In this document: in pieces, positions 4,790 through 26,357 of the stretch | How the letters are laid out: every line of letters begins with the position of its first letter | Numbering within the stretch: the stretch's first letter is position 1 | Origin: an uncultured Arenicella sp. | GTDB taxonomy: Bacteria; Pseudomonadota; Gammaproteobacteria; Arenicellales; Arenicellaceae | DNA: 64,000 nucleotides | NCBI GenBank assembly: GCA_938048185.1 | Contig: CALIVT010000003.1 | Span: 1 to 64,000, forward strand | Direction: 5' to 3' | Notes under the pieces: generated by a model | The model's input: only the letters and a program-made list of their open reading frames with translations | What the model was told of the DNA's origin: nothing | Database searches by the model: none | Position numbers and translations under genes: made by a program

Positions 4790-5320
4790 TTAGTACTTAA
4801 TTTCGACGCGGCGATTCGCCTGCCATGCTGCTTCGTTATGAGCAGGATCAGCTGGACGTTCTTCACCGTACGAAATAGTTTGAATAGTACTTGCTGAGTT
4901 AACCGCATTCATTACCTGAGACACAGTTTGTGCACGACGCTCACCCAAGGCTAGATTGTAATCGCGTGTACCACGCTCATCAGCGTGACCTTCTAGATTC
5001 ACTTGCGCACCGCCCTGTTGACCTAGGTGTTGCGCGTGACGCGTGGCAATCACTCTTGATCGCTCGTCCATCGCCGAGCTATTGTATTCGAAGTAAAGCG
5101 TGGTGTAATTTAGTGGGTCACCGTTAATGCCTAAACGCTCTAAATCAGACAAAGAATATTCGTCTAAGCCAAACGCGCCTTTTGCATTACGGCTGTCGGC
5201 GTCAGATAAGGTAGAAGTAGTGTCATCTTCAATAGCAACAGGTGCTTCCTTTTTAGAGGCACAAGCTGTTAGCACCAAAGCCATTAATATGGTCAAGATA
5301 AGACCTGATTTACGATTCAT
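4790..5320 (-). CDS. pal: Peptidoglycan-associated lipoprotein Pal
   Basis: Outer-membrane lipoprotein that binds peptidoglycan and TolB during envelope constriction. ATG at 5320 gives 176 aa, a typical length, and puts a GGAG Shine-Dalgarno at the right distance. The frame is open 29 codons further upstream, but that would precede the signal peptide with an implausible leader. The lipobox is LTAC. The OmpA-like domain includes LYFEYNSSAMD and the peptidoglycan-binding segment LEGHADERGTRDYNLALGER. It follows tolB by 43 bp. Confidence 0.97.
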   Translation of the reverse strand: MNRKSGLILTILMALVLTACASKKEAPVAIEDDTTSTLSDADSRNAKGAFGLDEYSLSDLERLGINGDPLNYTTLYFEYNSSAMDERSRVIATRHAQHLGQQGGAQVNLEGHADERGTRDYNLALGERRAQTVSQVMNAVNSASTIQTISYGEERPADPAHNEAAWQANRRVEIKY

Positions 5321-5363
5321 AATTTCACTCCGAGAATGATAGTTTTTTGTTGGCCGTGTTATT

Positions 5364-6674
5364 TTATTTTCTAAGCGGTGACCACGCCGGCTCACGCACA
5401 TCACCACTTACAAGCTCTAACCGAGTTCGCACACGGCCATCAGCAGAAGCCACCATCAAGGCCGGCTCAAACTGTTGTTCAGTTTTATACAATACCATGT
5501 CTCCATTAGGAGAAAAACTAGGACTTTCATCGAATTTTGCCAGTGTTAGCGGCGTAATGCGACTTGTTTCTTCATCCATTACCACGATTCTTCCGCCTTC
5601 GTGCACCATCACAATTTTGCGCCCGTCTAAATCGTAAGACGCGTTGGCACTTTCGTCGCCTTCAAAGGTCATACGAGTAACTGATTTATCGCTCATGCTG
5701 TAGCTGTAAATTTGGGGCTTGCCCGAGCGGCTAGAGGTGAATAAAAAGCTTTCTCCTCTGGGCGACCACGACGGCTCGGTATCAATACCGTAATGCGAGC
5801 TAATGCGTTGATGCTGCTTAGTTAACACGTCGTATACGTATATATCGGGGCTGCCATGGCGCGACGTAGAGTAGGCAATTTTGCTCCCATCTGGTGACCA
5901 TGCAGGCGCCGAGTTAACCCCTTTAAAATCAGCGATGACTTTTTCTTTACCAGTGTTTAGGTCTACAGTCTTGATGATTGGGCCGCGACTCGCATAGCTC
6001 ACAAACGCGAGTTCCGTGCTATCTGGTGACCAAGATGGCGACAATATGGGCTTCCAAGACGCGGCCATTTCTACGGCACCGTAGCCGTCCCAGTCGGAAA
6101 CCATCAATTGATAACGAAAGCGCTGATACTCAACCTCTTTGCGTTCAACGTAAGCCATGCGTGACTGAAAGGCTCCCGGGCGCCCGGTAAACGCTTCATA
6201 GACATTATCGCTAACAACGTGCGCTGCGGTTCTAAGGTTGCGCATTGATAAGCCGCTGATACGTTTGCCACGACCAATTTGTTTCTGACGCGCGATATCG
6301 TATATACGAAACTGAATTTCATATTGATCAGCACCGAGGGTGAGCACTTCACCAATCACAAGAATCTCAGCGTTGATAAAACGCCAATCTTTATAGCGAA
6401 CCTCTTCGTCACGTGATGGTTGGCTTAGAAAGCTTGCGGGCGGGATCGATTCAAATTTACCCGACGCGTTTAGATCAAACGCGACAATTTCATGAATCTG
6501 ATGCTCAATCAACGAACCGTCGGTCACTTTAAACGGAACAATGGCAATGGGTATGCCCTTGACCGCGGCCCCGGTTATATTTAGCTCAACCTGCGCGCTA
6601 CTTGCACTCACCCAAGCAACACTGGCAATGGCGAGCAATACAAGAAAAGAACGAATGGATTTTAATTTACTCAT
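5364..6674 (-). CDS. tolB: Tol-Pal system beta-propeller protein TolB
   Basis: Periplasmic protein that binds Pal and is released by TolA under proton-motive force. A signal peptide ends in ASSAQ. An N-terminal TolB domain with the segment IAIVPFK is followed by WD-like beta-propeller blades with repeated SWSPDSTELAF / AWSPDGSKIAY / SWSPRGESFLF / SFSPNGDMVLY motifs. Length 436 aa is normal. The gene lies 30 bp after tolA. Confidence 0.97.
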   Translation of the reverse strand: MSKLKSIRSFLVLLAIASVAWVSASSAQVELNITGAAVKGIPIAIVPFKVTDGSLIEHQIHEIVAFDLNASGKFESIPPASFLSQPSRDEEVRYKDWRFINAEILVIGEVLTLGADQYEIQFRIYDIARQKQIGRGKRISGLSMRNLRTAAHVVSDNVYEAFTGRPGAFQSRMAYVERKEVEYQRFRYQLMVSDWDGYGAVEMAASWKPILSPSWSPDSTELAFVSYASRGPIIKTVDLNTGKEKVIADFKGVNSAPAWSPDGSKIAYSTSRHGSPDIYVYDVLTKQHQRISSHYGIDTEPSWSPRGESFLFTSSRSGKPQIYSYSMSDKSVTRMTFEGDESANASYDLDGRKIVMVHEGGRIVVMDEETSRITPLTLAKFDESPSFSPNGDMVLYKTEQQFEPALMVASADGRVRTRLELVSGDVREPAWSPLRK

Positions 6675-6704
6675 TGGTTATACGCTTATTGGTTCTGACA
6701 TCAA

Positions 6705-7613
6705 TTATTTTTTAAGGTTGATATTTAAGTTCTGTAATTGTTGGTGAGCGGTCGCGTCTTCTTCCTGGCTAGGGAACGGCAGAGGACTTGCCTGTAAAAT
6801 AGCCGTTTCGACACTGCGATCAAAGTCAGGCAAGCCGCTCGAGTTTATGACACGCACCGATTGCACATCACCAGATGGAGACAGTTTAATATTTACTTTT
6901 ACCACGCGCCAAGCTTCTGTGCCGGGTGCTACGCGCCAGCGGTCTTTAATCGCCTGCTCAATACGCGAAGAATACAAGCTCATCACGGTTGCACTGCGCT
7001 CTTTGGCAACCTGATCTGCCGCCTGGCGCTGGCGCTCGGCTTCTTCATTCGCGAGCTCTGCCTCTAAGCGCGCTCGGCGTTTAGCATCTTCGGCATCGCG
7101 AATACGTTTTTCTTCAGCGGCCTTAGCTTTGCGTTTCTTATCTGCTTCGGCCTTTTTCTTGCGTTCGGCATCGGCTTTCTTCTTCCGATCAGCCGCTTCT
7201 TTTTCTTCTTTCTTTTTCTTTAGGGCAATGGCTTCTCGCTCACGCTCTAACTCAGCTGCTTTCTCTTTTTCCTTCTTTTGCTGATCTTTTAGCTTTTCGA
7301 TTTCCAGCTTTTCTTTCTCGGCTTCCTGCTTGAGCTTGTCTAACCGTTCGCGCTCGCGTTTTTCTTTTTCGCGCTTCTGACGCTCGCGCTCACGATCTTG
7401 TTGCTTTAGCTTTTCTTGTTGGTCTTTAATATCCGACTCATTAATCACGCTGGCATTAATAGTGTCAACTTTCTCGGCATCAAACGCGTCAACCGTTTCG
7501 CGGTTTTCCGTATAGTTAAACACCATGGCCCCAATGATAACCAAATGCACAATACCCGCAGCGATATACGCAACGGTCCTGTTCTTTAAGCCAGCCTTTC
7601 TTCTATTGCTCAT
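6705..7613 (-). CDS. tolA: Cell envelope protein TolA
   Basis: Inner-membrane protein that spans the periplasm and passes force from TolQR to TolB-Pal. It has one N-terminal membrane segment (about residues 13-30), then a long Lys/Glu/Arg/Ala-rich helix (about 65-205), then a globular TolA-III/TonB-like C-terminal domain (KVNIKLSPSGDVQSVRVINSSG). 302 aa, shorter than the E. coli protein because of a shorter helix. It starts 6 bp after tolR. Confidence 0.94.
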   Translation of the reverse strand: MSNRRKAGLKNRTVAYIAAGIVHLVIIGAMVFNYTENRETVDAFDAEKVDTINASVINESDIKDQQEKLKQQDRERERQKREKEKRERERLDKLKQEAEKEKLEIEKLKDQQKKEKEKAAELEREREAIALKKKKEEKEAADRKKKADAERKKKAEADKKRKAKAAEEKRIRDAEDAKRRARLEAELANEEAERQRQAADQVAKERSATVMSLYSSRIEQAIKDRWRVAPGTEAWRVVKVNIKLSPSGDVQSVRVINSSGLPDFDRSVETAILQASPLPFPSQEEDATAHQQLQNLNINLKK

Positions 7614-7619
7614 TTTTTG

Positions 7620-8045
7620 CTACTGTTTTGCTGGTAGTGGATCAGTGACTAGACTAACGCTCTCTACGCCGGCATTTTTCAATAACACCATGGCTTGTAA
7701 GACATCATCATAAATCGCTTGCTTATCACCGCGCACCAAAAAATCGGTGGCCGGCTTCTCTCGAAACAACGCGGCAGCATACAGTTGCACCTCAGGCCCG
7801 GTCTTCTTCAGATCGTCTATATACAGCTGACCATCCGCATCCACCGTCAAAATAAACGGCTCGGGTGATTCCTCGTTTAATTCAACCGGGTTCGCGGTTG
7901 TTTGTGGCAACTCAATTTTCACGCCTTCAGTTAACAGCGGGGCGGTCACCATAAAAATGATGAGCAGCACCAGCATCACATCAATGTAGGGCACTACATT
8001 GATCTCGGCGATGGGTTTGCGTTTACGGTCGCGATATTTACTCAT
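7620..8045 (-). CDS. tolR: Tol-Pal system proton-channel subunit TolR
   Basis: ExbD/TolR family. A single membrane segment (about 17-36, VVPYIDVMLVLLIIFMVTAP) carries the conserved proton-binding Asp at residue 22. A periplasmic domain of about 100 residues follows. Length 141 aa is normal. It is 14 bp after tolQ. This Asp is a useful reference for the vWA membrane proteins at 15531-17605. Confidence 0.96.
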   Translation of the reverse strand: MSKYRDRKRKPIAEINVVPYIDVMLVLLIIFMVTAPLLTEGVKIELPQTTANPVELNEESPEPFILTVDADGQLYIDDLKKTGPEVQLYAAALFREKPATDFLVRGDKQAIYDDVLQAMVLLKNAGVESVSLVTDPLPAKQ

Positions 8046-8059
8046 AACTCAGCGCGCGA

Positions 8060-8827
8060 TTAACGTTCTTCAATCGCAAGCTGACGATTCACGATGCTCA
8101 CGAACTCTTCCATAAAAATTTCATATTTACCAACCAGTTTCTCAACTTCATGAGAATATCGGTTATACGCTATTACCGCCGGAATAGCGGCGAACAAACC
8201 CATGGCGGTTGCGATCAAGGCCTCGGCAATGCCTGGCGCCACACTGGCAATGGTCGCTTGCTGGGTAGAAGAACCTAACGAGATAAACGAGTTCATAATC
8301 CCCCACACAGTTCCAAACAGGCCGACGTAGGGCGAGGTAGAGCCCACGGTTGCAAGAAACGGAATTTGAGATTCAAGATGGTCTATCTCGCGGCCTAGTT
8401 CAACACGCATAGCGCGCTGCACGGCGTCAAGCAGATCATTATTATTGGCATAACCGCGTTCTGACAAGCGCTGATACTCGCGATAGCCGGCGACAAAAAT
8501 TTCGCTCATGCCCGACGCTTTTTTGGTTTCAGCGCCCCATTGATTGTACAGCGCCTGCATGCTGCCGCCCGACCAAAACTCACGCTCAAATTTGGCGGTT
8601 AATCTGCGCTCTTTCCGCAGACTAAAAAACTTCGAAAAAATTATTGACCAAGAGAACAGCGATGCAAGCAGCAACAGCAGCATCACCAACTGTACGGTTA
8701 TACTCGCCTCACTGATGAGCGAGATGATAGACATACTGTCAGCAGCGTGCGCACCGGCTGACTGACTGATGGCATCAGCCGCCGCGCCCAGTGTTTCGGC
8801 TTGAAGATCTTGATTTTCGTTTGGCAT
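8060..8827 (-). CDS. tolQ: Tol-Pal system proton-channel subunit TolQ
   Basis: MotA/TolQ/ExbB family inner-membrane channel. The family core LATVGSTSPYVGLFGTVWGI and the last membrane helix PGIAEALIATAMGLFAAIPA are intact. ATG at 8827 gives 255 aa, including about 30 polar residues before the first membrane helix, longer than usual. The frame is also open to TTG at 8851. A later ATG in front of SIISLISEAS would give the E. coli-like N terminus but has no good Shine-Dalgarno. Start uncertain, function not. Confidence 0.95.
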   Translation of the reverse strand: MPNENQDLQAETLGAAADAISQSAGAHAADSMSIISLISEASITVQLVMLLLLLASLFSWSIIFSKFFSLRKERRLTAKFEREFWSGGSMQALYNQWGAETKKASGMSEIFVAGYREYQRLSERGYANNNDLLDAVQRAMRVELGREIDHLESQIPFLATVGSTSPYVGLFGTVWGIMNSFISLGSSTQQATIASVAPGIAEALIATAMGLFAAIPAVIAYNRYSHEVEKLVGKYEIFMEEFVSIVNRQLAIEER

Positions 8828-8875
8828 TGTTAGTGTGTTCTCGGCATTCAATTCACTGATTTTCTAGCGCTAATT

Positions 8876-14079: not shown

Positions 14080-14755
14080 CTATTGATTCACCTTTAGGGC
14101 ATTCGGATCTTTGGCAAAGAAGCGTACCAACTGCTTCCCCATACCTTGACAGGCGTCACCTTGAACTTGGGCCAACAAAGGAATAGGTATCACGAACGCC
14201 GGCATGTATGACGTGCCTACGGCCTCGGTGCTAACGCGGCCGACCTCGTCGAATGTTTTTAAGTCCCAGATCGTAGTTTCGTAGTCGCTGGTGTCTTCCC
14301 AAGTGCCGAAACCAAAACAACCACCACCGCCTGGCCCAATTGAACAGGTCATGCTGCCTGACGAATTGGTTCGCTCGGTAGAGCCTTCAACCCAAACAAA
14401 GTAGCGAATGTTCATTGCATCTATTTTCTCAGCCACCAGCGGATTGTCTAACACCTTACGAAGCTTCTCGGGGTGCAATGGTGCTGTTCGAGCCTCGAAC
14501 CAAGGGTAAAACGCGTCAACAAATTCGGGCTCAGGAATAATACGAACATTTTGAGTGCCGCGTTGTAAACGCCCACCGATGCACGCTACCAACGAGCCTT
14601 CAGTTTGAATCTCAGCCGTTTGGTGACGCCCTAAGACGACCATTGCGTCGCCCTCGATAAGTTCGACGGTGTCTTTGAGGCGTACTTGATCGATGTTAAT
14701 TGTGGTACACGCTGATAGCACCAATAGATATGCGCTTAACGCAATTAATTTTAGA

Positions 14756-14769
<14 letters not shown>
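14080..14769 (-). CDS. Lipoprotein of unknown function
   Basis: 229 aa. The signal peptide ends in the lipobox LSAC. The mature part has several Cys residues (VACIGGRL, MTCSIGPGGGGCFGFG, GDACQGM) that could form disulfides in the periplasm, and a glycine-rich loop. I do not recognise the family. Its start overlaps the end of the preceding lipoprotein gene by 14 bp, so both are translated together as part of the vWA/ExbB-like cluster. Confidence 0.8.
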
Positions 14770-15530
<761 letters not shown>

Positions 15531-15541
<11 letters not shown>

Positions 15542-16529
15542 TATTAAGCCCTATAAATGTTCCGTTATTCTGCTCAGCCAGTTCGCGCATCAAAGTTGCG
15601 TAGCGCATTTGTGAGCTATTAATACCAGGGTCTTGCATCAACAAAACCGGAAAGCCAACCCCGTGTATGCGCACCAACGTATCACCTTTGCGGTTACGTT
15701 TGTTCAATTCTTCGACAATTTTTGTGACACGGCGAATGGATCGACCTTGGTAATCATCGCCCATTACATACAAACTTATTTTCTTGTTCTTATCATAATG
15801 CTGGCGAATAGCATTAGTAATGCCGCCTACCGGTGTTGAAGTACTGAACGCTGACCAAGTGGACAACTTACTGACAATGCTGCGACGACGACTGGGTGAG
15901 TCGGGTAGAAATTTACCGCGATAACTCGGGAACATATAAATACCCTCATTGTTCATCACCTGTATACCCTTAACCGTCGGATAGATCGCCAAGATGTTCC
16001 GGACCTCTCGAACCAAACGCCCCCAAGCGTTCGAGGTCATACTGCCAGAACTATCAATAATAAAAATAATATACTCCGAATCGACTGGAACGCCAGCTAT
16101 GTATTCGTTTGCCTTTTTCCGACCTTGCAACAAACGCTTCATTTCACGGGTGAGTGTTTGCAGCGCAATTTGCAAGTCTTCCGCCTGCGTGGCGTCTTCG
16201 GCACCTTGATCCTCGGAGCTTGGTTTACGCGAATTCAGTGTGTCAAACTCGCTACGCAGAATGGCAACGCGGCGCTTATCTTTACCCAGCTGTTCTTGTT
16301 TCGCGTTTAGTTCGGTTTCTAAAAAATTCACTTGGCCACGAATTTCAAACAGGCGCTCCTGCAATGCGCGCACCAAGCCTTTATCTTGAATTAGCGATTC
16401 TTCGAGCACCACCGGCGGATTAGGCCGCACGATAACCAGTAGCAACACGATGGCACCAAAGCCACAGCAAATAATATCCAAGAAGGATATGTTTGCATCT
16501 TCTAAGCCGCGACGACGCCTTCGACTCAT
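15531..16529 (-). CDS. Membrane-anchored von Willebrand A protein 2
   Basis: 332 aa from ATG 16529, which overlaps the stop of the previous vWA gene as ATGA; the frame is open to 16586, but that start lies inside the other gene. An Arg-rich N terminus (inside-positive) precedes one membrane segment, NISFLDIICCGFGAIVLLL, with Asp at residue 18. A coiled coil follows (about 45-110), then a vWA domain with the MIDAS motif DSSGSM. The domain would lie in the periplasm. It is paired with a second vWA gene of the same layout and an ExbB-like gene, which suggests an ExbD/TolR-like stator role; that is an inference. Confidence 0.87.
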
Positions 16530-17605
16530 GGCCAATCTCTCGCTGGTGTTATGTAGGAACCGCGGGTTTGAATCGCTAAGCGCCAAAAGGATGCCGCCGC
16601 GTATGGGTCGCCTTCGAGCGGCAATAAGAACGTATTCACCGGAATACCTGGAATAAGTGTCTTGATGGCCGACCGAAAAGTCCGCAGTCGCTCAATGCCG
16701 CTGATCGTGCCCGATTTAGGACTTTTATCGCCAAGAGTTGGTAGACCGTCGGTAATCAAAAATATGTTGTCGGGCTTAGGCGTCATCGCCATCGCCATTG
16801 CAAACACTTTGTGCATATTCGTGCCGTTCTCAGGCACTACCTTGCCAACACCTTGCACGGCTGAAGCGACGGATGCGCGATCACCCACTTCGTACCATTC
16901 ATTAACTTCGTTACCAAACACAGGCTTCACATCTTCGTTAAAGCTCAGCACTTGAAAGTCGCTAGACAATGGTAGGTTAGCGACAACCCATTGCGCAATC
17001 GCGAGTGTGCGCTGCCATTTTTCCGATTGCCGCTTAAGTGAATCACTCATGTTGCGGCGACGCAGAATATTAACAATGGTTTCATCGAGCATACTCGATG
17101 ACGCATCAACAAGAATAAGCACATTCTCACCACCAAGCTTAATACCGGTAAGGTATTGTCGTTCACCCTCGCCCGTAAATTCGTACGCTTTGTTACCCGC
17201 CGGCACGGTAGTTTCAAGTGCCTCTTTTTGTTTTTCAAGACGCGCAATTTTGGCTTTTAAGCCGGGCACGTCGATCACCGAGTCTGGTTGAATTTCTTCG
17301 AGTAAACTTTTGAGTTCCTTAATTTCTTCAGAAATTTTTCGCGCCAAACCTTGCGCGGTTACAGTTTCGTCGGTGACGTCACTAATCGTGTTGCGGATAC
17401 GAACTAAGTTTTTCTCGCCAACCAGAATTTCTTCTTCTAGCAAGCTAATTTCGGACAGGTCTTGCGGGTCTTGATTGGGAACCGGTGAATCAACCACGTG
17501 CTTTAGCAATAAGAAAATCAACACGGCGGCACCTAAGCCACAGGACATAATATCCAAAAACGACAGGCTAAAGGTTGACGTGTTGCGAATTTTCTTGCGT
17601 GCCAT
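16526..17605 (-). CDS. Membrane-anchored von Willebrand A protein 1
   Basis: 359 aa. A basic N terminus leads into a single membrane segment, SLSFLDIMSCGLGAAVLIFL, with Asp at residue 18 as in its neighbour. Residues 50-150 are predicted coiled coil (two Glu/Lys-rich stretches). The vWA domain starts at about residue 160 with MIDAS DASSSM and continues with ITDGLPTLGD. Orientation by charge places the vWA domain in the periplasm. It lies 18 bp after the Hsp70-like gene. The TM Asp is placed like that of TolR (PYIDVMLVLLIIF), which suggests a proton-coupled partner for the ExbB-like protein. Confidence 0.87.
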   Translation of the reverse strand: MARKKIRNTSTFSLSFLDIMSCGLGAAVLIFLLLKHVVDSPVPNQDPQDLSEISLLEEEILVGEKNLVRIRNTISDVTDETVTAQGLARKISEEIKELKSLLEEIQPDSVIDVPGLKAKIARLEKQKEALETTVPAGNKAYEFTGEGERQYLTGIKLGGENVLILVDASSSMLDETIVNILRRRNMSDSLKRQSEKWQRTLAIAQWVVANLPLSSDFQVLSFNEDVKPVFGNEVNEWYEVGDRASVASAVQGVGKVVPENGTNMHKVFAMAMAMTPKPDNIFLITDGLPTLGDKSPKSGTISGIERLRTFRSAIKTLIPGIPVNTFLLPLEGDPYAAASFWRLAIQTRGSYITPARDWP

Positions 17606-17623: not shown

Positions 17624-18940
17624 CTAAATCACCTGGATGACAGTAATTACACCGTCAGCCAAATGTGACCCTAAGCGGTCATTGGGCTTTAACATGGTAC
17701 GGCCCTCGTCATTCATGACGAACAATTGACCCCCGGTCAGCAAATTGTTGACGTTCGCTGCGCCGCCGACTTTCACGCTTAAGCTATTGTCGTGCATTGA
17801 TACTTCTGCCTCACTGATGGCAATCGCTTTGCCAGCGCTTAGTAAGTGCGTAGCGGCGTGTGATGCGACACCTAAGACGCTTGCTTCTTTGCTCGCGTTT
17901 GGCTTTGCGCCTGGCGTTGGCTGATGGCTCGTTTTGCGGTCTGCACTTGGTAACGATACGTCGGTTTGGTACACCACTGAACGTCCGTCACCGGCATCAC
18001 TTATCAGTGCGTCAATGTCGCGTTCAGGTGCGCCCTGCACTAACTCGATACCTGCAGCGTCTAAACCTGCGAGCGACGCACTGCCAAACGCAGAATTAAG
18101 ATCGATTAACGTTTTACCGGCACTGGCTTGTGCTAGGCGTTGAGTGAAGCCACTCAATAAAGCCTGCCACTCTTTTGTGTCTAATGAGGTGCTGTGCAAT
18201 TTACTTTGATGCTCGACGCCGATATTCGCTTTACCATGCGCGGCAATTTGCTCCGCAATTTTCGGCAGCTGATCAAATAATTGCTGCTCGGTGCTGGCGT
18301 CATGTAAAGGGTCAAAGCGATCATTCTGAATGAAGCTATGTTGCAAACCCTTCAACAGCGTTTCTTGCATAAGGTGTATGCCAACGTCTTGAATTATCTC
18401 GACCTCGCCTAAGGTCACCGAGCCATCAGCAACAGTAAGACGTGAACTTACAGTTTGATGTAACTGCACGTCATGATGAAGATAGTCTCCCTCATTAGCC
18501 TGGTCGGACGACAACGCACCCGATGCAAGCGCCAAGCTCGCTTTGTTTAGCAACCCTCTGATTCGCAAATCGCAGGCCTTAGCGACACCTAATAGCAATT
18601 GCAAGTTTTCGGACCGGTAATGGGACGGCACAACTAAGACCAAGTCGTCTAGATTAAACTGCTGCTTGAGTTGGCTTAAGTGTTGCCAAATCAAATCGGC
18701 TGCATGCCGCATACCGGCGATATTGCTACTGATGGCACTTTGGTCACACTGCATCCAATAGCGGTTATTGATCTCTTGAGGTGCCAGGCGACAGCGTTTT
18801 ATCGCTGAGCTCTGAGCATCGCCGCCGAGGTCAAAGTGTACCGACTCGTTAGCTAACCACGCATAACCTTGGCTCGCAAATTGCTCGCGCTCTTTTCGCA
18901 GCAGCAATTTATTGTCATTGATGTGAAGCACGTCGACCAT
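17624..18940 (-). CDS. Divergent Hsp70/actin-fold (ASKHA) protein
   Basis: 438 aa, no signal peptide, so cytosolic. Segments match the Hsp70 order: LVLVVPSHYRSENLQLLLGVAKA resembles the VPAYF...A helix, followed by LRIRGLLNKASLALA in the place of the NEPTAAALA motif, and VTLGEVEIIQDVGIHLMQETL in the place of the DTHLGGEDFD region. The first phosphate loop (DxGTTNS) is not recognisable and the key glycines are largely changed, so ATP binding is doubtful. It lies between the ExbB-like gene (5 bp) and vWA protein 1 (18 bp), which suggests that it acts with them on the cytosolic face. Family assignment is by my own alignment. Confidence 0.65.
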   Translation of the reverse strand: MVDVLHINDNKLLLRKEREQFASQGYAWLANESVHFDLGGDAQSSAIKRCRLAPQEINNRYWMQCDQSAISSNIAGMRHAADLIWQHLSQLKQQFNLDDLVLVVPSHYRSENLQLLLGVAKACDLRIRGLLNKASLALASGALSSDQANEGDYLHHDVQLHQTVSSRLTVADGSVTLGEVEIIQDVGIHLMQETLLKGLQHSFIQNDRFDPLHDASTEQQLFDQLPKIAEQIAAHGKANIGVEHQSKLHSTSLDTKEWQALLSGFTQRLAQASAGKTLIDLNSAFGSASLAGLDAAGIELVQGAPERDIDALISDAGDGRSVVYQTDVSLPSADRKTSHQPTPGAKPNASKEASVLGVASHAATHLLSAGKAIAISEAEVSMHDNSLSVKVGGAANVNNLLTGGQLFVMNDEGRTMLKPNDRLGSHLADGVITVIQVI

Positions 18941-18945
18941 GATAC

Positions 18946-19749
18946 TTAGCTCTGCAGATGTCTAATTAGATTGTGATCGCAGTAGTCCTGCGCTTCGAGA
19001 ACCATGCGCTCTTGCATCAATGTTATTTGGTGCATTAAAAACATGATTACGATACTGATCAACAGCGCCACAAAGGTAGAGTTAAATGCCACCCCTAAGC
19101 TCGCCGTTACCGCGGCGATGTTACCCGCAACCGCTTCATGCGCATTACCTAGGGCGGTGCCAATACCCCGGACGGTGCCGATAAACCCAATTGAGGGAAT
19201 TGCCCAGGTTATGTAACGAACCATCGAGAGTTCTGAATCAAGACGATCGGCTTCGGTGTCGCATAAATCACGCACAACGTTTGACACGTCGGCCACCGAG
19301 CCAGTGGAGCCATAACGATTCAGCGCGCCACGCAGTGCACGCGGCAATAAGAAGCGACGCTCCGGCTCTGGCAGTGCCTCTAAGGGTCGGGCTAATTTTC
19401 GCGCATCTTCGGGCAACACCCTGCGACCTTCTTCAATACTAATAAGGGGCTGGCTTAACATACGGCGCTGCGCGCCTACGCCTTGGGCTTTAAGCCCCAT
19501 GATTGCCATCACCCACAGCATTAGTATAAAACACGACTCTTGCTCGTAATCTTTCAGCACCACCCATGCCGAACGCTCAATGCTAACTATTTCACCAGAT
19601 GCCTCTTGCTCGGCGATCGCTTGCTGCTCAGCCGCAAGCACCGCTTCAGCATTAGGCCTAACCAAACCAACATAAATGGTATGCACCACGACGAACGATA
19701 ATATCAAGGCAACAATTTGATAGAAAAATTCTGATTTTTGAAGTTTCAT
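18946..19749 (-). CDS. MotA/TolQ/ExbB-family proton channel protein
   Basis: 267 aa with about four membrane segments (around residues 8-28, 70-88, 180-200, 220-245). The family core is visible in AIPSIGFIGTVRGIGTALGNA, comparable to TolQ PYVGLFGTVWGI, and in TASLGVAFNSTFVALLISIV. These proteins form the proton-conducting pentamer of Tol, Exb, Mot and Zorya machines. No exbD, tolR or motB follows. Instead the next membrane proteins in the operon are two vWA proteins with an Asp in their TM helix, the likely partners. Confidence 0.9.
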   Translation of the reverse strand: MKLQKSEFFYQIVALILSFVVVHTIYVGLVRPNAEAVLAAEQQAIAEQEASGEIVSIERSAWVVLKDYEQESCFILMLWVMAIMGLKAQGVGAQRRMLSQPLISIEEGRRVLPEDARKLARPLEALPEPERRFLLPRALRGALNRYGSTGSVADVSNVVRDLCDTEADRLDSELSMVRYITWAIPSIGFIGTVRGIGTALGNAHEAVAGNIAAVTASLGVAFNSTFVALLISIVIMFLMHQITLMQERMVLEAQDYCDHNLIRHLQS

Positions 19750-20179: not shown

Positions 20180-22330
20180 TTATTTCTTCTTATTCAATCC
20201 AGCATAGCGCGCAATGCGAAAACCTATGTCATGCTTACCCTTGGCGGAATAGTCTCGGTAGGCCAAACGTAACTGCGGCAAATGACCCTTAGCCCAACTC
20301 GCGCCACGAACCACATGGAATTCGCCAATGTCTGGGCCAATCGGGTCGCGCAGCGCTCGCGAGCCCTTTAACTCACTGTTGCCTTTAGAGCTATACCAGT
20401 CGTTGACCCACTCCGAGGCGTTACCACCAATGTCAAACAAACCGTGATGGTTCGCGCCAAAGCGGCCAACCGGCGACGGGCCTTTATAACCATCATCGTA
20501 GTCGCTAAGTGTAAACGCGAGTATGTCGGCTGCCTTTTTATCAGCAAAATTGCCAACTCGTTTATTCGCCGCAATTGTTTTGGAATTACCCCAAGGATAC
20601 GTCATGGTGGCGCCATCTTTATTACGCGCTAACCAAGCCCATTCAACCTCAGTTAGCAGACGATAGCCATTTGCGTTCTTTATATTGCCAGAAATAAAAC
20701 CTTTAGTGGTCTTATAAAATGGATCAAGCCCTTCTTTCTTGCTCAACCAATTACAGTAGCGTGCCGCATCTTGCCAACTGATATTTACCACTGGTGCTTT
20801 TTGGGCGTCTAGACTCTTAGCTTTATAATTCCCGGAATTATGCGAACCCCTAAAAGCTCGAAATTGCTTGTTAGTCGTTTCGTGCAACGCCACATAGAAC
20901 GGTTTGGTAAGCTCAGCTTGATACACAACCTCGTTCGCGCGCCGACCATCCTCTCTACGCGATGACCCGAGCGCTACCGAACCAAGCTGTTTAAACAGCT
21001 TCATCTGGTGGCCCGCGTTATTAGTGTATGTGTCGGGCACCTGAGCCCAATAATGTTGCTCTTCAGTAAGCAAGCTAACACTGATAATTTGAGTATTTCG
21101 GCGCGACGGAATGATGTCATTATTTTGAGTAACGTAACCCGGTTTGCGCACGCTGATCTGATGCGGCAAAGTGTTTAAATTTAGGGTTTGACTGCCGCGT
21201 CCGCGTGCCACACCATCGACGTAAACTTGTGCGTCACTCGGTGACACACTGATGCGTACAGGAATAATATCCGCACTTAGGCTGACCGATTTTTCCACCG
21301 CCTGCTCGGGTTCTAAGTTTAAGGTTTGTTCCGCAAGCTCAAAGCCCGCCTTATATATCTGCACCTGCTGTTGCGTGTTCGGCGCGACACTCAATTTCAT
21401 CGGTGTAACACCACGAAACTCATTATTCAAAATAACCGCAGCGCCAACTGGGGTCGAACTTAAATTCAATTCGCCGTCGGCCGGAATAAGCTCGATGGTG
21501 GGAATGGTCAAGTTTTCACCCGCAACCACGCCGATTTCTTGAGTGAAGGTTTTAAATTTATCCGCCTGTAAGCTGAGCTGACGAGTACCTTCTTCGACTT
21601 TCAGCAGCAAAGGTGTGACGCCAACGTCTACACCGTCAATGGCTACGCTTGCGCCCGCCGGTTGCGAGCTAACCTGGTATTCCGCCCATGCGGGCTGCAA
21701 GGTCAACGTTACACTCTGCGTCTCGCCCCGACCCTTTACCAACAGGCTTTGTGAAATAGGTCGATAGAGGGGCGCGTCGATGGTAATTTGACGTTTACCC
21801 GCAGCAATATTTTGAATCGTACCCGGCAGTGTCGCAAACGCAACACCGTCTATCAGAACATCAGCCTTAAGTGATTCGCCACCCTGATTACTAATTTTGA
21901 TCTCTAAGTTACCCGGTAAGCGCGTTAACTCGATTTCAAACTGTTGATGACGCTCGGAGCCAACTTGCAAGCTTTGATCTACTGGCGTAAACCCGTCGGC
22001 AGCAAGTCGCACACGGTGCTCTCCGGGCAACAACAGCACACGATTCCCAAGCGGCAGCTTGAGCATCGTGTCGATATTGATCTCGGCCGATTGTGCGAAA
22101 AATTTTGCAGGGTCACTTAAATCTACTTTAATCGCACGCACTTCGATACTGCGTGCAAAGGTTATAAACCCGATAAATAAAAGACTCAGAAGCGCAATAA
22201 AAAATAACCCAAAATGTGCGGCTGTTAATTTAAAGCGGGTAACGGCAATCTCGCCCGTTGGTGCTTGAAACTCGGCGGCACTAATCTGTGCGTTGTTTAA
22301 GGCACTATTATTGTTAATCGGCTGATTCAT
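20180..22330 (-). CDS. Membrane PEGA-repeat protein with inactive FGE-sulfatase (SUMF1) domain
   Basis: 716 aa from ATG 22330, placed 1 base after the upstream stop; a GTG eight codons earlier is possible. One membrane segment lies at about residues 37-60. At least three PEGA domains follow (VSSQPAGASVAIDGVDVG, LSSTPVGAAVILNNEFRG, ISVSPSDAQVYVDGVARG), with two more degenerate copies before them. From about residue 440 it is a formylglycine-generating-enzyme-like domain (NISWQDAARYCNWLS, LLTEVEWAWLAR, FDIGGNASEWVNDW, VVRGASWAKG, IGFRIARYAG). The two catalytic Cys of true FGE, expected after RGASW, are absent, so it should not make formylglycine and may bind a ligand or cell wall. Confidence 0.88.
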   Translation of the reverse strand: MNQPINNNSALNNAQISAAEFQAPTGEIAVTRFKLTAAHFGLFFIALLSLLFIGFITFARSIEVRAIKVDLSDPAKFFAQSAEINIDTMLKLPLGNRVLLLPGEHRVRLAADGFTPVDQSLQVGSERHQQFEIELTRLPGNLEIKISNQGGESLKADVLIDGVAFATLPGTIQNIAAGKRQITIDAPLYRPISQSLLVKGRGETQSVTLTLQPAWAEYQVSSQPAGASVAIDGVDVGVTPLLLKVEEGTRQLSLQADKFKTFTQEIGVVAGENLTIPTIELIPADGELNLSSTPVGAAVILNNEFRGVTPMKLSVAPNTQQQVQIYKAGFELAEQTLNLEPEQAVEKSVSLSADIIPVRISVSPSDAQVYVDGVARGRGSQTLNLNTLPHQISVRKPGYVTQNNDIIPSRRNTQIISVSLLTEEQHYWAQVPDTYTNNAGHQMKLFKQLGSVALGSSRREDGRRANEVVYQAELTKPFYVALHETTNKQFRAFRGSHNSGNYKAKSLDAQKAPVVNISWQDAARYCNWLSKKEGLDPFYKTTKGFISGNIKNANGYRLLTEVEWAWLARNKDGATMTYPWGNSKTIAANKRVGNFADKKAADILAFTLSDYDDGYKGPSPVGRFGANHHGLFDIGGNASEWVNDWYSSKGNSELKGSRALRDPIGPDIGEFHVVRGASWAKGHLPQLRLAYRDYSAKGKHDIGFRIARYAGLNKKK

Positions 22331-22331
22331 A

Positions 22332-23975
22332 CTAATTGGTCGCAACTCCGGCACTGACTACCGGCGTAGTACAAGCAATACTAAAGCTTTGAACATCCTC
22401 GCCGTTGGCACGCAATTCAATTTCCTTGCGCTCATCTCTATAACCCAAACGCTTACCACTGACGACATATCGCCCTGGCTTAAGCGCCAACTTCTTACTA
22501 CTGAACTTACCAAGATTAATCCGCTTTGACCCGGCCTTGACTAAACTTACATCGGTAAGCTGGTTCGAACTAAAACTAACCTTAATTGTGCTGTCGAGCT
22601 GTTTGAGCGAGGCCTCTAACTGTGCAACTTGACGACTGAGGACCTTGCCTTTTACCTTAATCGCGCGTGCATCGGCCAATACCTTCTCGGCACGCGCTCG
22701 TTGGGTGGCGCGGCTGAGCGCTAGTGGGTCCGCGAGCACATCCACAATTGATTGATTCAGCTCTTTACGAGCCTCGCTGCGAATTTTACCGAGCTTCGCG
22801 CCAACTTGGTTTGGGTCGCGCTGCAAAACGGCTTGATAAGTGCTTAGCGCGCTGGCCCACTCCTCCGTTTGCTCTAAATTTTTCGCGTTGCTAATCAGCG
22901 AGCTTAACGACGAGCGCTTATCGGACGCAAGTGATTGGCGATAGGCTGAATTCGCGGTAGTGTCATTCGGCCTAATTTTAAGCGCTTGCGAAAACCCAGA
23001 TTTTGCGGCGCCGTAACGCCCAGCAAATAAAGAGTTAAAGCCGATGCTCATTGCATCTCGATATTTCTTATCGGCGATAAGCTCGGCAACGCGTTGCGCA
23101 CCACGCTTTGCTTGCTCAGTACGTGGATCTAGCGCTAGCGCCTGTTGATATTTTTGATCCGCTAGCGTTAAGTTCTCTAGTTTATCGGTGTTTGCGAAGG
23201 CCTGTTCGTCTATGTCTGCCGTCCTAAGCAAATCGAGCACTTGATTCAGCGTGTTAGCTCGATCAATACCTCGTAGCGCCGGAATATGATTTTGATCTAG
23301 CGTCAGTGCCTCTTGGAATTTTTCGCGCGCCAATTCAGTTTTACCCTGCTCAATCGCTTGCAAGCCTTGCGTAACAAGGCTTTTTAGCACGCTCGGAATG
23401 AGGGCATCTAGGCTCTGCATTTGATCAAGCGCGGCTTGATAGGTTTTTACCGCGTTTACAAAATCTTTACGCTTATAAAATTCATCTCCTTCAGCGGCTT
23501 GCTGCAACGCAAGACTATAACCTTCGGCGCCCCAGTCGCTTACGTTTCGGCCTTCAAGCTCCTTTTTTACTTTCAACAAGTCGGCTAAAATATCTTGCGA
23601 ATCAGTGCGCGCCTGTTTGCGCCGGCTCTCATCCCATGGTGCAGCTTCATCGTCATCGCTAACAACACTTTGTCCTACGCTGGTGCTTCCTTGAGATGAA
23701 ACAACGGTGTTTTTATTCGGCGTGTTGGGTGCTGGCGTAAGCAGTACAAACAGCAATGCAGCAAGGCCTAGCAAGCCGAAGACGCATAACATTAGGTTAA
23801 ACTGTGAGTACCACCAAGGCGCGTCGGCGCGTGCGAGCAACAAAGAACCCGAGCCGCTCGATGTGTCGCTGCGCGAAAAGGCGGCATTTGTTGGCGCGGC
23901 GTTGCCAGCCGCCGGGGCGACAAAGTCGCTGGCTTCGATGGCCTGCTTGCCATCGATATCATTCGAGTCAACCAT
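22332..23975 (-). CDS. Membrane TPR protein with PEGA-like C terminus
   Basis: 547 aa. One membrane segment at about residues 57-82 (FNLMLCVFGLLGLAALLFVL) is followed by a short acidic linker and helical TPR-like repeats (EGDEFYKRKDFVNAVKTYQ, IEQGKTELAREKFQEAL, LFAGRYGAAKSGFSQAL, TEEWASALSTYQAVL). The last 90 residues look like a PEGA beta domain (LKPGRYVVSGKRLGYRDERK). The TPR part is presumably periplasmic and could scaffold the cluster. It lies 3 bp after a lipoprotein gene and 1 bp before the PEGA/FGE gene. Confidence 0.82.
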   Translation of the reverse strand: MVDSNDIDGKQAIEASDFVAPAAGNAAPTNAAFSRSDTSSGSGSLLLARADAPWWYSQFNLMLCVFGLLGLAALLFVLLTPAPNTPNKNTVVSSQGSTSVGQSVVSDDDEAAPWDESRRKQARTDSQDILADLLKVKKELEGRNVSDWGAEGYSLALQQAAEGDEFYKRKDFVNAVKTYQAALDQMQSLDALIPSVLKSLVTQGLQAIEQGKTELAREKFQEALTLDQNHIPALRGIDRANTLNQVLDLLRTADIDEQAFANTDKLENLTLADQKYQQALALDPRTEQAKRGAQRVAELIADKKYRDAMSIGFNSLFAGRYGAAKSGFSQALKIRPNDTTANSAYRQSLASDKRSSLSSLISNAKNLEQTEEWASALSTYQAVLQRDPNQVGAKLGKIRSEARKELNQSIVDVLADPLALSRATQRARAEKVLADARAIKVKGKVLSRQVAQLEASLKQLDSTIKVSFSSNQLTDVSLVKAGSKRINLGKFSSKKLALKPGRYVVSGKRLGYRDERKEIELRANGEDVQSFSIACTTPVVSAGVATN

Positions 23976-23978
23976 CAG

Positions 23979-25298
23979 CTACAGCTCGTCTAACTCTGAT
24001 TGAGCAGGCACACGGGTTACTGCTTGAGTATTTGAAGAATTGGTTTTCAGAGTAGACCTTTCAGTCGCTCTCGAGTCAGTGCTTTGCGATTCTGCTTCGC
24101 CTGAAGAATCGCTGTCACCTTCCTCCAAACGAAACATTTCCGATAGGATACGCCGCCATTCTTGGTATTGATCGTCTACGGTACCACTTAAGGTAATACT
24201 TCTGTCTTGCAGATCTACAATGCTTGGCTCTAGTTCGGTTTCAAGCGACGCTGATAACTCGCGTAACGTCGAGCTATGCGACAGCGCTTCTTCACTTTTT
24301 AAGAAGCTATTAGCGAACACGCGCGCGCCGCCAATAATACCAATATGACCCGCGCCCCGCGTTGTACGGCTATTACCGTTAGTCGCGGCGGCGATGCCAC
24401 CGGCTATGGCGGCAACGCCGGCGATTTTCTCGCGCCTTGCTTGCTCTTTTAATTGACGGGCATACAGCACTTCTTTATAGCTCAGCTTACGCCACTCTTG
24501 ATACGGGCCTTCCATTTTTCGATTAAAGGCTCGGTAGTAATCTTGTACCACGTCGAGGAATAGATCGTTTCGAGAACGAATTCTATCAACGCGTTGCATC
24601 ATCGGGTCACTGCTGGCCGGTACGCGAAGCAATGAAAGCTGACCCTGTTCGTCGGTACTAACAAACTCGTTAAATGCGTCCGGCACAAAATCGCGCGCAA
24701 ATAATACTTTCGAGATACTACGAATTTCAACAATTTGCTCATCACTTAAATTCGCACGATAGTTAAACAGATCGTTTGCAATTTCGTTGAACGTCGCTTG
24801 AAAAGGGTCGCCAGGCAAATTGACTTCGGGGTTGTACGCATAGGCACTGGCGCGCTGCTCGTACTCCTTTGCGAACCATTCGGTGCCACTCGCATCGTTC
24901 GCGCGGACAAGTAATTTAACAACTTCACCATTGGATTCAATCAACGTACCACTAACGGTAACATCCATTCCAAGGCGCTCGCCAGGAAGCACACGCACCA
25001 AGCCCCAGGCGTTACTGGTTTCCAGAGTTTTCTTTAATTGGTTAGTAAACCAAACCGACTCGCTTTGGCGCACATTGGAGTAGTCAACTTGGTCTGAATC
25101 TAAATCAACTAAACCCGGATCAAAAAGCACAACACCCACGTCGAGAAACAACTGTTCATCGATCAACTGCTCTTGGCTTTCACTGACTCGTTCAATCGAT
25201 ACCTGTTTGGTCTCGTGGTACTCGAAGGTCGTGCACGCACCAAGCAACGCAGTACACAATATGACAGCCGCTCGTAGGTAATAATTCAAGTGCGCCAC
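23979..25298 (-). CDS. Lipoprotein of unknown function with glycine-rich hydrophobic segment
   Basis: 439 aa. The lipobox is LGAC. The first half includes LFDVGVVLFDPGLVD-like secretin/lipoprotein-style sequence and LVRANDASGTEWFAKEY. In the middle a short hydrophobic Ala/Gly stretch (KIAGVAAIAGGIAAATNG) follows a basic segment and could touch a membrane. The C terminus is Ser/Thr-rich and probably disordered. The family is not recognised. It starts directly after the stop of the acidic lipoprotein gene. Confidence 0.78.
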   Translation of the reverse strand: MAHLNYYLRAAVILCTALLGACTTFEYHETKQVSIERVSESQEQLIDEQLFLDVGVVLFDPGLVDLDSDQVDYSNVRQSESVWFTNQLKKTLETSNAWGLVRVLPGERLGMDVTVSGTLIESNGEVVKLLVRANDASGTEWFAKEYEQRASAYAYNPEVNLPGDPFQATFNEIANDLFNYRANLSDEQIVEIRSISKVLFARDFVPDAFNEFVSTDEQGQLSLLRVPASSDPMMQRVDRIRSRNDLFLDVVQDYYRAFNRKMEGPYQEWRKLSYKEVLYARQLKEQARREKIAGVAAIAGGIAAATNGNSRTTRGAGHIGIIGGARVFANSFLKSEEALSHSSTLRELSASLETELEPSIVDLQDRSITLSGTVDDQYQEWRRILSEMFRLEEGDSDSSGEAESQSTDSRATERSTLKTNSSNTQAVTRVPAQSELDEL

Positions 25299-26357
25299 CT
25301 ATTGCTTTTTGTAGTTGTAATATTCCTCCCAAAGCTTCTTTTTCAGCTCAGGGTCGGTTTCATTTTCAGCAGCTTCACGAATTTGGCGGGCAACGATATC
25401 GTCATTCTTTCTTAAATCAGCTAAATCGGGCGCGTCATCTTGTTTTTGATTCTCGTCAGCTTGTTGCTGTGATTTGGATTCGCCTTCACGCGCTACACCA
25501 CTGTCAGCACTCTGACCACCCGCGCTCTGCGAGTCAGATGAACTGCTAGACGCGCCTTGCTCGCCTTGTTGTTGACCGCTTGCAGACGGTTTACGTTGAC
25601 CCTTGGCAACGCCATCTTCTGTCTCGTCGTACTCATCAAAAGCGCCTTCGTTATCAAAGTCACCGCTGCCGCCAGCATCACCTTCTTCGTTGGCGCGCCC
25701 CTCAGCATACTCTTGCTCACGTTCGATTTCTTCGTCGAAATCGCCCAGGGTTTCGTCTAATTCTTTCTCGAGTTCTTCCAATTCTTTCTCGCTCAAGCCG
25801 CCTTTATCTTCAAACGAAGGCTCTTCAAACTCTCCCTTAGCCGTAGCGTCAGTTTTAGGCTCTTCAAAACTCACATCGTTTTCGCCAGCGTTTGCACTGC
25901 CACCGTCATCACCCTCTTCTTCCCAGCCTTCAGGAACATCACCTTGTGCGCCGTCTTTGCCCTCGCCTTTTTCGCCGTCGCCGTCGCCCTCTCCCTTGCC
26001 TTTACCTTCTTCGCCTTCTTCGCCTTCTTCACCTTTAGTGTCACCGCTCTCACCACTGCTACCTGATGACGGTTTTCCCGGAGGTGTCGGTGGGGTTGGT
26101 AAGCCGGGCGGGGTTGGCGCGCCTGCGCCACCGCCCCCAACAGGCGGTACAGGCAATGGCAGTGATGGCCCACTGGGACCGCCACCACCGGACGGCCCAA
26201 TAGGTTGTGCGCATGCAGTTACAAGGGCGATAGCACCCAGGAGCAACGCTAACTTTAGAGCAGGCACCGGGCGCAGCCCGCTTGGTGCGACGGTGCTCTG
26301 GACTATGCCCTCTTTGATAATACTCATATTACTTGTCACGTTACATCCCAATTTCAT
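25299..26357 (-). CDS. Acidic low-complexity lipoprotein
   Basis: 352 aa. A hydrophobic segment ends in the lipobox VTAC. Next comes a Gly/Pro-rich tether (about 50-95), then about 200 residues dominated by Glu, Asp, Gly and Lys (EGEEGEEGKGKGEGDGDGEK). The C-terminal 45 residues are different and look folded and helical: VARQIREAAENETDPELKKK then LWEEYYNYKK. ATG at 26327 is an alternative start giving a shorter n-region. It could be a stalk-like anchor in the periplasm. Function unknown; it lies 30 bp after the TPR/TonB-C-like gene. Confidence 0.75.
   Translation of the reverse strand: MKLGCNVTSNMSIIKEGIVQSTVAPSGLRPVPALKLALLLGAIALVTACAQPIGPSGGGGPSGPSLPLPVPPVGGGGAGAPTPPGLPTPPTPPGKPSSGSSGESGDTKGEEGEEGEEGKGKGEGDGDGEKGEGKDGAQGDVPEGWEEEGDDGGSANAGENDVSFEEPKTDATAKGEFEEPSFEDKGGLSEKELEELEKELDETLGDFDEEIEREQEYAEGRANEEGDAGGSGDFDNEGAFDEYDETEDGVAKGQRKPSASGQQQGEQGASSSSSDSQSAGGQSADSGVAREGESKSQQQADENQKQDDAPDLADLRKNDDIVARQIREAAENETDPELKKKLWEEYYNYKKQ

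Follow-up and report, generated by a model that had tools for sequence, protein, structure and literature searches.

What could a degenerate Hsp70-type protein be doing among the genes of an ion-channel operon? The question is raised by the window, the whole stretch of 64,000 nucleotides analysed here (uncultured Arenicella sp., contig CALIVT010000003.1, positions 1 to 64,000), in which such a protein, E, is encoded within a run of genes on the minus strand. Lettered in the order of their transcription, from J to A, these genes are:

25299 to 26357, minus strand: J, predicted low-complexity lipoprotein
23979 to 25298, minus strand: I, predicted lipoprotein of the same operon
22332 to 23975, minus strand: H, bitopic TPR protein; relatives elsewhere have an N-terminal Ser/Thr kinase at the same place
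20180 to 22354, minus strand: G, bitopic protein with PEGA and an FGE-sulfatase fold (Pfam)
18946 to 19749, minus strand: F, MotA/TolQ/ExbB-type channel subunit of 267 residues (Pfam MotA_ExbB, E-value 4.1e-13; conservation)
17624 to 18940, minus strand: E, pseudo-Hsp70/FHA-like protein of 438 residues, ATG start; full-length relatives exist
16526 to 17605, minus strand: D, vWA protein 1 (Pfam), with N-terminal membrane helix SFLDIMSCG, Asp18 and MIDAS DxSxS
15531 to 16586, minus strand: C, vWA protein 2 (Pfam), with membrane helix SFLDIICCG, Asp37 and MIDAS DxSxS
14756 to 15541, minus strand: B, predicted lipoprotein
14080 to 14769, minus strand: A, predicted lipoprotein

Relatives of E were collected by a pattern-based scan of genome contigs with an alignment as the query, which returned 322 sequences, of which 80 were kept as loci L030 to L109; a single-sequence query of the contigs returned nothing. 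The family alignment, A2, has 78 members, namely the window and 77 of the 80 loci (L041, L068 and L082 were dropped, being truncated at contig ends). By title, the relatives belong to Arenicella, Microbulbifer, Woeseiaceae and other Gammaproteobacteria. In a sample of 370 genomes of the class, E has a full-length match in 13 and an N-domain match in 3; in a sample of 397 genomes of the phylum, the full-length matches number 4, all within the class of the window. The remaining matches in both samples are chiefly to the C-terminal FHA stretch, or are weak or partial. The E family is gammaproteobacterial. A phage, plasmid or defence origin was considered and rejected: no relative was found among viral contigs, plasmids or phages, and PADLOC gave nothing specific. 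Three of the operons (L044, L074 and L083) lie on contigs titled as a Klebsiella pneumoniae MAG, labels that are probably wrong.

E is present as an open frame in 16 of 17 other genomes of the genus, so the reading frame is not a product of chance; in the sole exception, G012, the vWA1 gene sits at a contig end. The family signature RFDPLHxAxxEQ (window sequence RFDPLHDASTEQ, residues 208-219 of E; 18284 to 18319, minus strand) has R, F, D, P, L, H, A, E and Q invariant in 78 of 78 members, and the C-terminal end NDRLGS.LADGV is conserved throughout the genus. E diverges fast, with 36-57% identity across nine loci vs 81-93% for the channel subunit F. Some genomes of the genus (L132 and L135-L138) have a further short Hsp70-like frame, about 424-446 residues long, that matches PF00012.

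E is a single-copy gene in its own genome. The original prediction placed it 5 bp after an ExbB-like gene and 18 bp before the first vWA gene and described it as coupled to the channel; both distances were confirmed, and F is the nearest recognised upstream gene in 72 of the 80 loci. The PEGA/FGE gene is the upstream neighbour in 6 of 80 and vWA1 the downstream neighbour in 75. At L100, L103, L105, L055, L070 and L077 the operon is rearranged: E comes after the PEGA/FGE gene, and the channel gene is found downstream. By phmmer, F recurs in 79 of the 80 loci, D and C in 78 each, G in 69, H in 67, I in 61, J and B in 50 each and A in 44, some of these counts being lowered by contig ends. At 4790-8851 of the window a canonical-looking Tol-Pal gene set was read by eye, so an ordinary ExbB/ExbD-type system is also nearby in the genome.

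The positions within E that bear on its fold and chemistry are as follows.

17987 to 18940, minus strand: ASKHA (Hsp70 nucleotide-binding domain) fold, residues 1-318 (AlphaFold model, Foldseek, VIA-align)
18905 to 18925, minus strand: phosphate-1 loop position, residues 6-12, HINDNKL
18455 to 18472, minus strand: phosphate-2 loop position, residues 157-162, DVQLHQ
17627 to 17860, minus strand: degenerate FHA-like domain, residues 361-438, lacking SRxH

The AlphaFold model of E, built with the 78-member alignment, has a mean pLDDT of 90.1 and a disordered linker at residues 336-360. Structure search places it in the ASKHA/Hsp70 fold, as had been expected: Foldseek matches DnaK (2v7y) with an E-value of 3.2e-15, and the 50 PDB entries in its list of matches are Hsp70-type proteins or complexes that contain them, with E-values down to 2.0e-16. 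VIA-align gives a Z score of 25.7 with DnaK 2v7y (rmsd 3.4 Å over 304 aligned residues) and of 24.9 with Ssz1 (4gni). The window protein alone has no Pfam family at an E-value of 1 or below, and its two matches among PDB sequences are at chance level (E-value about 1). The Pfam HSP70 profile matches the orthologue in G017 (6.2e-4) and 2 of the 78 family members (best 3.7e-4). The claim that Hsp70-like blocks are kept in order was substantiated by hhalign of A2 against a DnaK/HscA profile of the nucleotide-binding domain, built from sequences of the window's own and related genomes, in which residues 26-271 are collinear (E-value 5.3e-8, probability 94.8). Because this collinearity joins the structure matches, the Hsp70 kinship of E rests on sequence and fold together. 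By modelled fold and profile, the N-terminal part of E is an Hsp70-type ASKHA domain. The Hsp70 substrate-binding domain is absent from E; in its place the C-terminus aligns with FHA-bearing relatives.

The same domain has lost the residues with which an Hsp70 holds nucleotide, by motif definitions that we take as the usual ones for phosphate-1, phosphate-2 and adenosine. At the phosphate-1 position Gly is found in 0 of 78 members, Thr or Ser in 0 and Asp in 9, which bears out the prediction that this loop is unrecognisable; a conserved [E/H]-[L/I]-N-D occupies the position. At phosphate-2, hhalign places D157-V-Q-L-H-Q of E on the D-L-G-G-G-T of the DnaK/HscA profile; the Asp is retained in 66 of 78 members and GGG in 0 of 78. 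No GG was found at the adenosine-motif anchor among the rows that have the anchor (6 of the 78 rows do not). In an alignment of DnaK from the window's own genome, the normal nucleotide motifs are present as invariant columns. Inspected for a complete ATP site, none of the 78 members has one. We therefore ruled out an active Hsp70 or ATPase, no complete nucleotide motif being present among the 78 members: judged by its residues, E has an Hsp70 domain without an ATP site.

The C-terminal region is of a different kind. The original prediction missed both this FHA-derived domain and the Ser/Thr kinase that accompanies it in other species. The Pfam FHA profile (PF00498) matches 24 of the 78 family members at an E-value of 0.1 or below, the window protein not being among them, and Yop-YscD_cpl, the FHA-like profile of YscD, matches 20 of 78 at the same threshold. 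Two distant relatives, with whose kind the window C-terminus aligns, pass the Pfam cut-off for FHA (L025, 1.8e-12; L027, 5.2e-12). Modelled alone, the C-terminal domain has a pLDDT of 93.6, and its top matches are mostly FHA domains, weakly (Foldseek E-value 0.87; Z score 3.7 over 63 residues); at an E-value of 0.001 or below Foldseek gave no match for this model. The SRxH motif marks the phosphothreonine site of FHA domains. It is present in 22 of 80 loci and is found neither in the window protein nor in its genus. With moderate confidence, based on alignment and model, we assign the C-terminus to a degenerate FHA-derived domain. In type III secretion, FHA domains of the YscD/MxiG type have likewise lost phosphothreonine reading; the degenerate domain of E would be alike in this, and E differs in partner domain and system. 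In L187 and L188, E consists of the ASKHA part only.

The neighbours of E suggest the kind of machine it belongs to. An Asp in the N-terminal membrane helix is invariant in 76 of 76 vWA1 (D) and 74 of 74 vWA2 (C) proteins, and the MIDAS DxSxS is invariant in both. In MotB and ExbD a membrane-helix Asp is tied to ion conduction. By analogy, the helix Asp of D and C suggests that they conduct ions as partners of F and that their vWA heads lie in the periplasm; in ion flow, stoichiometry and topology the set presumably follows its family. F matches ZorA of Zorya at an E-value of 0.012 only, and the vWA proteins have no ZorB row in PADLOC at 0.1 or below. The best match of G is NCBIfam GldK, at 4.2e-24, which is below the curated cut-off. 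Near the end of the C-terminal FGE domain of G, the region RGASWAKGHLPQLRLAYRD has no Cys at what we take to be the place of the catalytic pair, so this FGE domain is probably not an enzyme.

H links the operon to phosphorylation in other lineages. H is absent in 13 of 80 loci, and in 19 of the 67 that have it an N-terminal kinase-like domain is present (Pkinase E-value 3.3e-30 in L108). E carries SRxH in all 17 loci in which this kinase keeps HxD and D[F/L]G, and in 0 of the 50 others (0 of 2 whose kinase has lost HxD and 0 of 48 with no kinase). L091 and L094 are the two kinase loci lacking SRxH; the catalytic HxD is gone in both, and their kinase domains are, from these residues, likely pseudokinases. 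The changes there read HGH in the one case and K to T, HGN and QFG in the other, and the FHA domain is degenerate in both. Arg replaces the ATP-binding Lys of VAIK in 3 of the 17 kinases (L072, L080 and L085). An extra N-terminal FHA-like domain is found on G in 17 of 19 kinase loci and 2 of 48 others. L076 has SGSHC and a separate kinase frame, L059 has SPLHC and no kinase, and in the later loci L183 and L186 kinase and SRxH are both present. The association of kinase and FHA site has a Fisher p of 3e-16 over 67 loci, which are related to one another. On the tree of the ASKHA part either trait changes twice, with one starred independent pair, so the association is not claimed as independent evidence; the trees are unrooted and read the same for gain and loss.

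A second association concerns the cytosolic N-terminal tails of the bitopic proteins, in which the window has these two motifs.

22259 to 22285, minus strand: ISAAEFQAP, in the N-terminal cytosolic tail of G, where E is proposed to dock
23913 to 23939, minus strand: IEASDFVAP, in the corresponding tail of H, similar to the motif of G

The tails of G vary in length and sequence, yet share the motif I-x-P-x-x-[F/Y]-x-P. Among 64 tails (63 of the 69 loci with G, and the window) it is present in 58 in its strict form and in 64 in its lax form, as compared with at most 6 and 13 among shuffled tails; the pattern was written after these E-bearing tails had been viewed, and the counts in them are therefore descriptive. 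The motif is weaker in the tails of H (strict in 13 of 64). In a larger set of E-bearing G tails the lax form is found in 71 of 74 and the strict form in 64; E is present at L053, L184 and L187 with a G tail that lacks even the lax form. The tail of L187 is a Tyr variant that misses both patterns, and L188 keeps the motif though its E has no FHA domain.

Operons devoid of E provide the counterpart. vWA1 is found in 29 of the 370 class genomes, and E is present in 16 of these 29 and absent in 13, absence being called by profile search, with an N-domain search of the 13. One of them, G396, has a single weak partial match to the E profile (3.1e-4, profile positions 28-136, in a 626-residue frame), which we read as a putative ordinary Hsp70. 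Ten of the 13 were covered at the level of the locus (L223-L232, from G396, G224, G373, G325, G139, G414, G172, G062, G282 and G107, respectively, with G118, G302 and G341 left out), and in these D follows F directly. F is conserved in all ten, with E-values of 3e-77 to 2e-126. These loci were fetched after the motif pattern was fixed. In seven readable G tails, with helices set by hand, the strict motif occurs in 0 and the lax motif in 1 (L232); with automated helix calls, of which that in L225 fell inside the FHA domain and produced a false motif, the numbers are 1 and 2 of 7. On the tree of F the presence of E changes twice. With two changes each, a sign test has too little to work on, so both the kinase/FHA and the E/motif association could be due to common descent. 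Since the operon occurs in 13 of 29 vWA1 genomes without it, E is accessory to the channel, a character with which its fast divergence agrees. The occurrence of the operon without E backs the earlier suggestion of a regulator or scaffold indirectly.

A nucleotide-free protein of ASKHA fold, placed among membrane proteins with short tails, most resembles a docking adaptor. We see an even chance that E is an adaptor of the PilM/FtsA kind which, nucleotide-free, sits on membrane-protein tails beside an ion-driven channel, phospho-regulated elsewhere and constitutive in Arenicella. F, D and C would form an ExbB/ExbD-like ion-driven motor, by analogy, whose moving part ends in periplasmic vWA heads. 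E would be a soluble cytosolic protein, an Hsp70-type ASKHA domain minus its ATP site followed by the FHA-derived domain, and from the co-occurrence described above it would bind the tail motif of G and, in Arenicella, also the similar motif of H. Such binding may resemble that of PilM to PilN and of FtsA to FtsN, and would keep these tail proteins next to the channel. In lineages whose H bears a kinase, the FHA domain of E would read phosphothreonine and make assembly or activity switchable. Arenicella has neither the kinase nor the FHA site, so there the adaptor would work independently of phosphorylation. A broader version, possible but on balance doubtful, is that Gammaproteobacteria have an undescribed envelope machine, driven by ions and controlled by a kinase, with the dead Hsp70 as the assembly key that grips the tail motif and with FHA letting the kinase switch it; some lineages would have hard-wired it by joint loss of kinase and FHA site, others have a bare E (L187, L188), and others do without E and motif.

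The alternative that E acts as a clutch or plug by binding the cytosolic loop of the MotA/ExbB subunit directly, with no need of the tail motif, is unlikely: the channel gene is its usual upstream neighbour, 5 bp away in the window, but in 6 of 80 loci E comes after the PEGA/FGE gene, and the channel is conserved in the ten loci lacking E and evolves slowly while E evolves fast. It is improbable that E is a cytoskeletal scaffold that polymerises like FtsA or MreB and positions the machine. To our knowledge Hsp70s are as a rule not filament formers, the structure matches listed are of the Hsp70 type, and E has no nucleotide site to drive assembly. What speaks for a scaffold is the superfamily shared with FtsA and MreB, the double filaments that FtsA forms on binding a short cytosolic tail (PMC7613929), and the link of the Myxococcus Agl/Glt motor to MreB (PMC3169522). 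A chaperone-like holder that prevents vWA or lipoprotein clients from folding until they are exported would suit the Hsp70 origin of E and the precedent of Ssz1, an atypical Hsp70 that works without ATP hydrolysis (PMC8476630), but E has no ATP site and no substrate-binding domain, with the FHA-derived domain or nothing (L187, L188) instead, and we regard this reading as very improbable. Least probable of all is that E in Arenicella is a decaying relic of a kinase/FHA system: the degenerate FHA, the missing kinase and the fast divergence agree with decay, but the full-length open frame in most genomes of the genus, the invariant signature and the genus-wide C-terminal end argue against it.

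The docking-adaptor reading is framed by several known systems. Like the nucleotide-binding domain of Hsp70/DnaK (PF00012), E has the fold over residues 1-318 and a collinear profile. Ssz1 is a non-hydrolysing Hsp70 type in a fixed complex, as E would be; it binds ATP (PMC8476630), whereas E has no nucleotide motif at all. E differs from both in having no substrate-binding domain and a C-terminal FHA-derived domain. In PilM-PilN and FtsA-FtsN the tails are bound in an interdomain cleft (PMC7613929). These pairs resemble the present case in the combination of a cytosolic ASKHA protein with bitopic proteins that have short conserved cytosolic tails; E differs in being of the Hsp70 and not the FtsA type, the tails are those of PEGA/FGE and TPR proteins, and binding is here a proposal. 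The Agl/Glt system of Myxococcus (AglR-AglQ-AglS, GltG) similarly combines a single MotA/TolQ/ExbB subunit and two partners of one helix each; it also has TPR proteins and a bitopic protein whose FHA domain is cytosolic (PMC3169522). Here the partners end in vWA, and the kinase, the PEGA/FGE protein and the pseudo-Hsp70 are additional. PorK/GldK with PorLM/GldLM of the T9SS also sets a sulfatase-modifying-enzyme fold beside a proton-driven motor (PMC12635249); PorK is a lipoprotein of the outer membrane and part of a ring, G is bitopic with PEGA repeats, and their similarity may be only that of a common fold. CoCoNuT systems combine Hsp70-like nucleotide-binding domains of degenerate motifs with kinases and vWA, but in a restriction context (PMC11090510). 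We propose, by analogy, a working like that of the PilM/FtsA, Agl/Glt and PorK systems and not membership in them. In the literature searched there was no account of a motif-less Hsp70 nucleotide-binding domain fused to an FHA-derived domain beside a MotA/ExbB channel; such papers as came up deal with other systems.

E thus has the look of a passive docking component in a bacterial envelope machine that is undescribed and probably driven by ions. Its family offers a testable set: a single soluble protein, a single peptide motif, and operons that by nature have or lack E. If the adaptor reading is true, an Hsp70-type case would be added to the PilM/FtsA idea of ASKHA proteins as tail-binding adaptors. 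The family indicates that hundreds of species share a conserved motor-like system, as yet uncharacterised.
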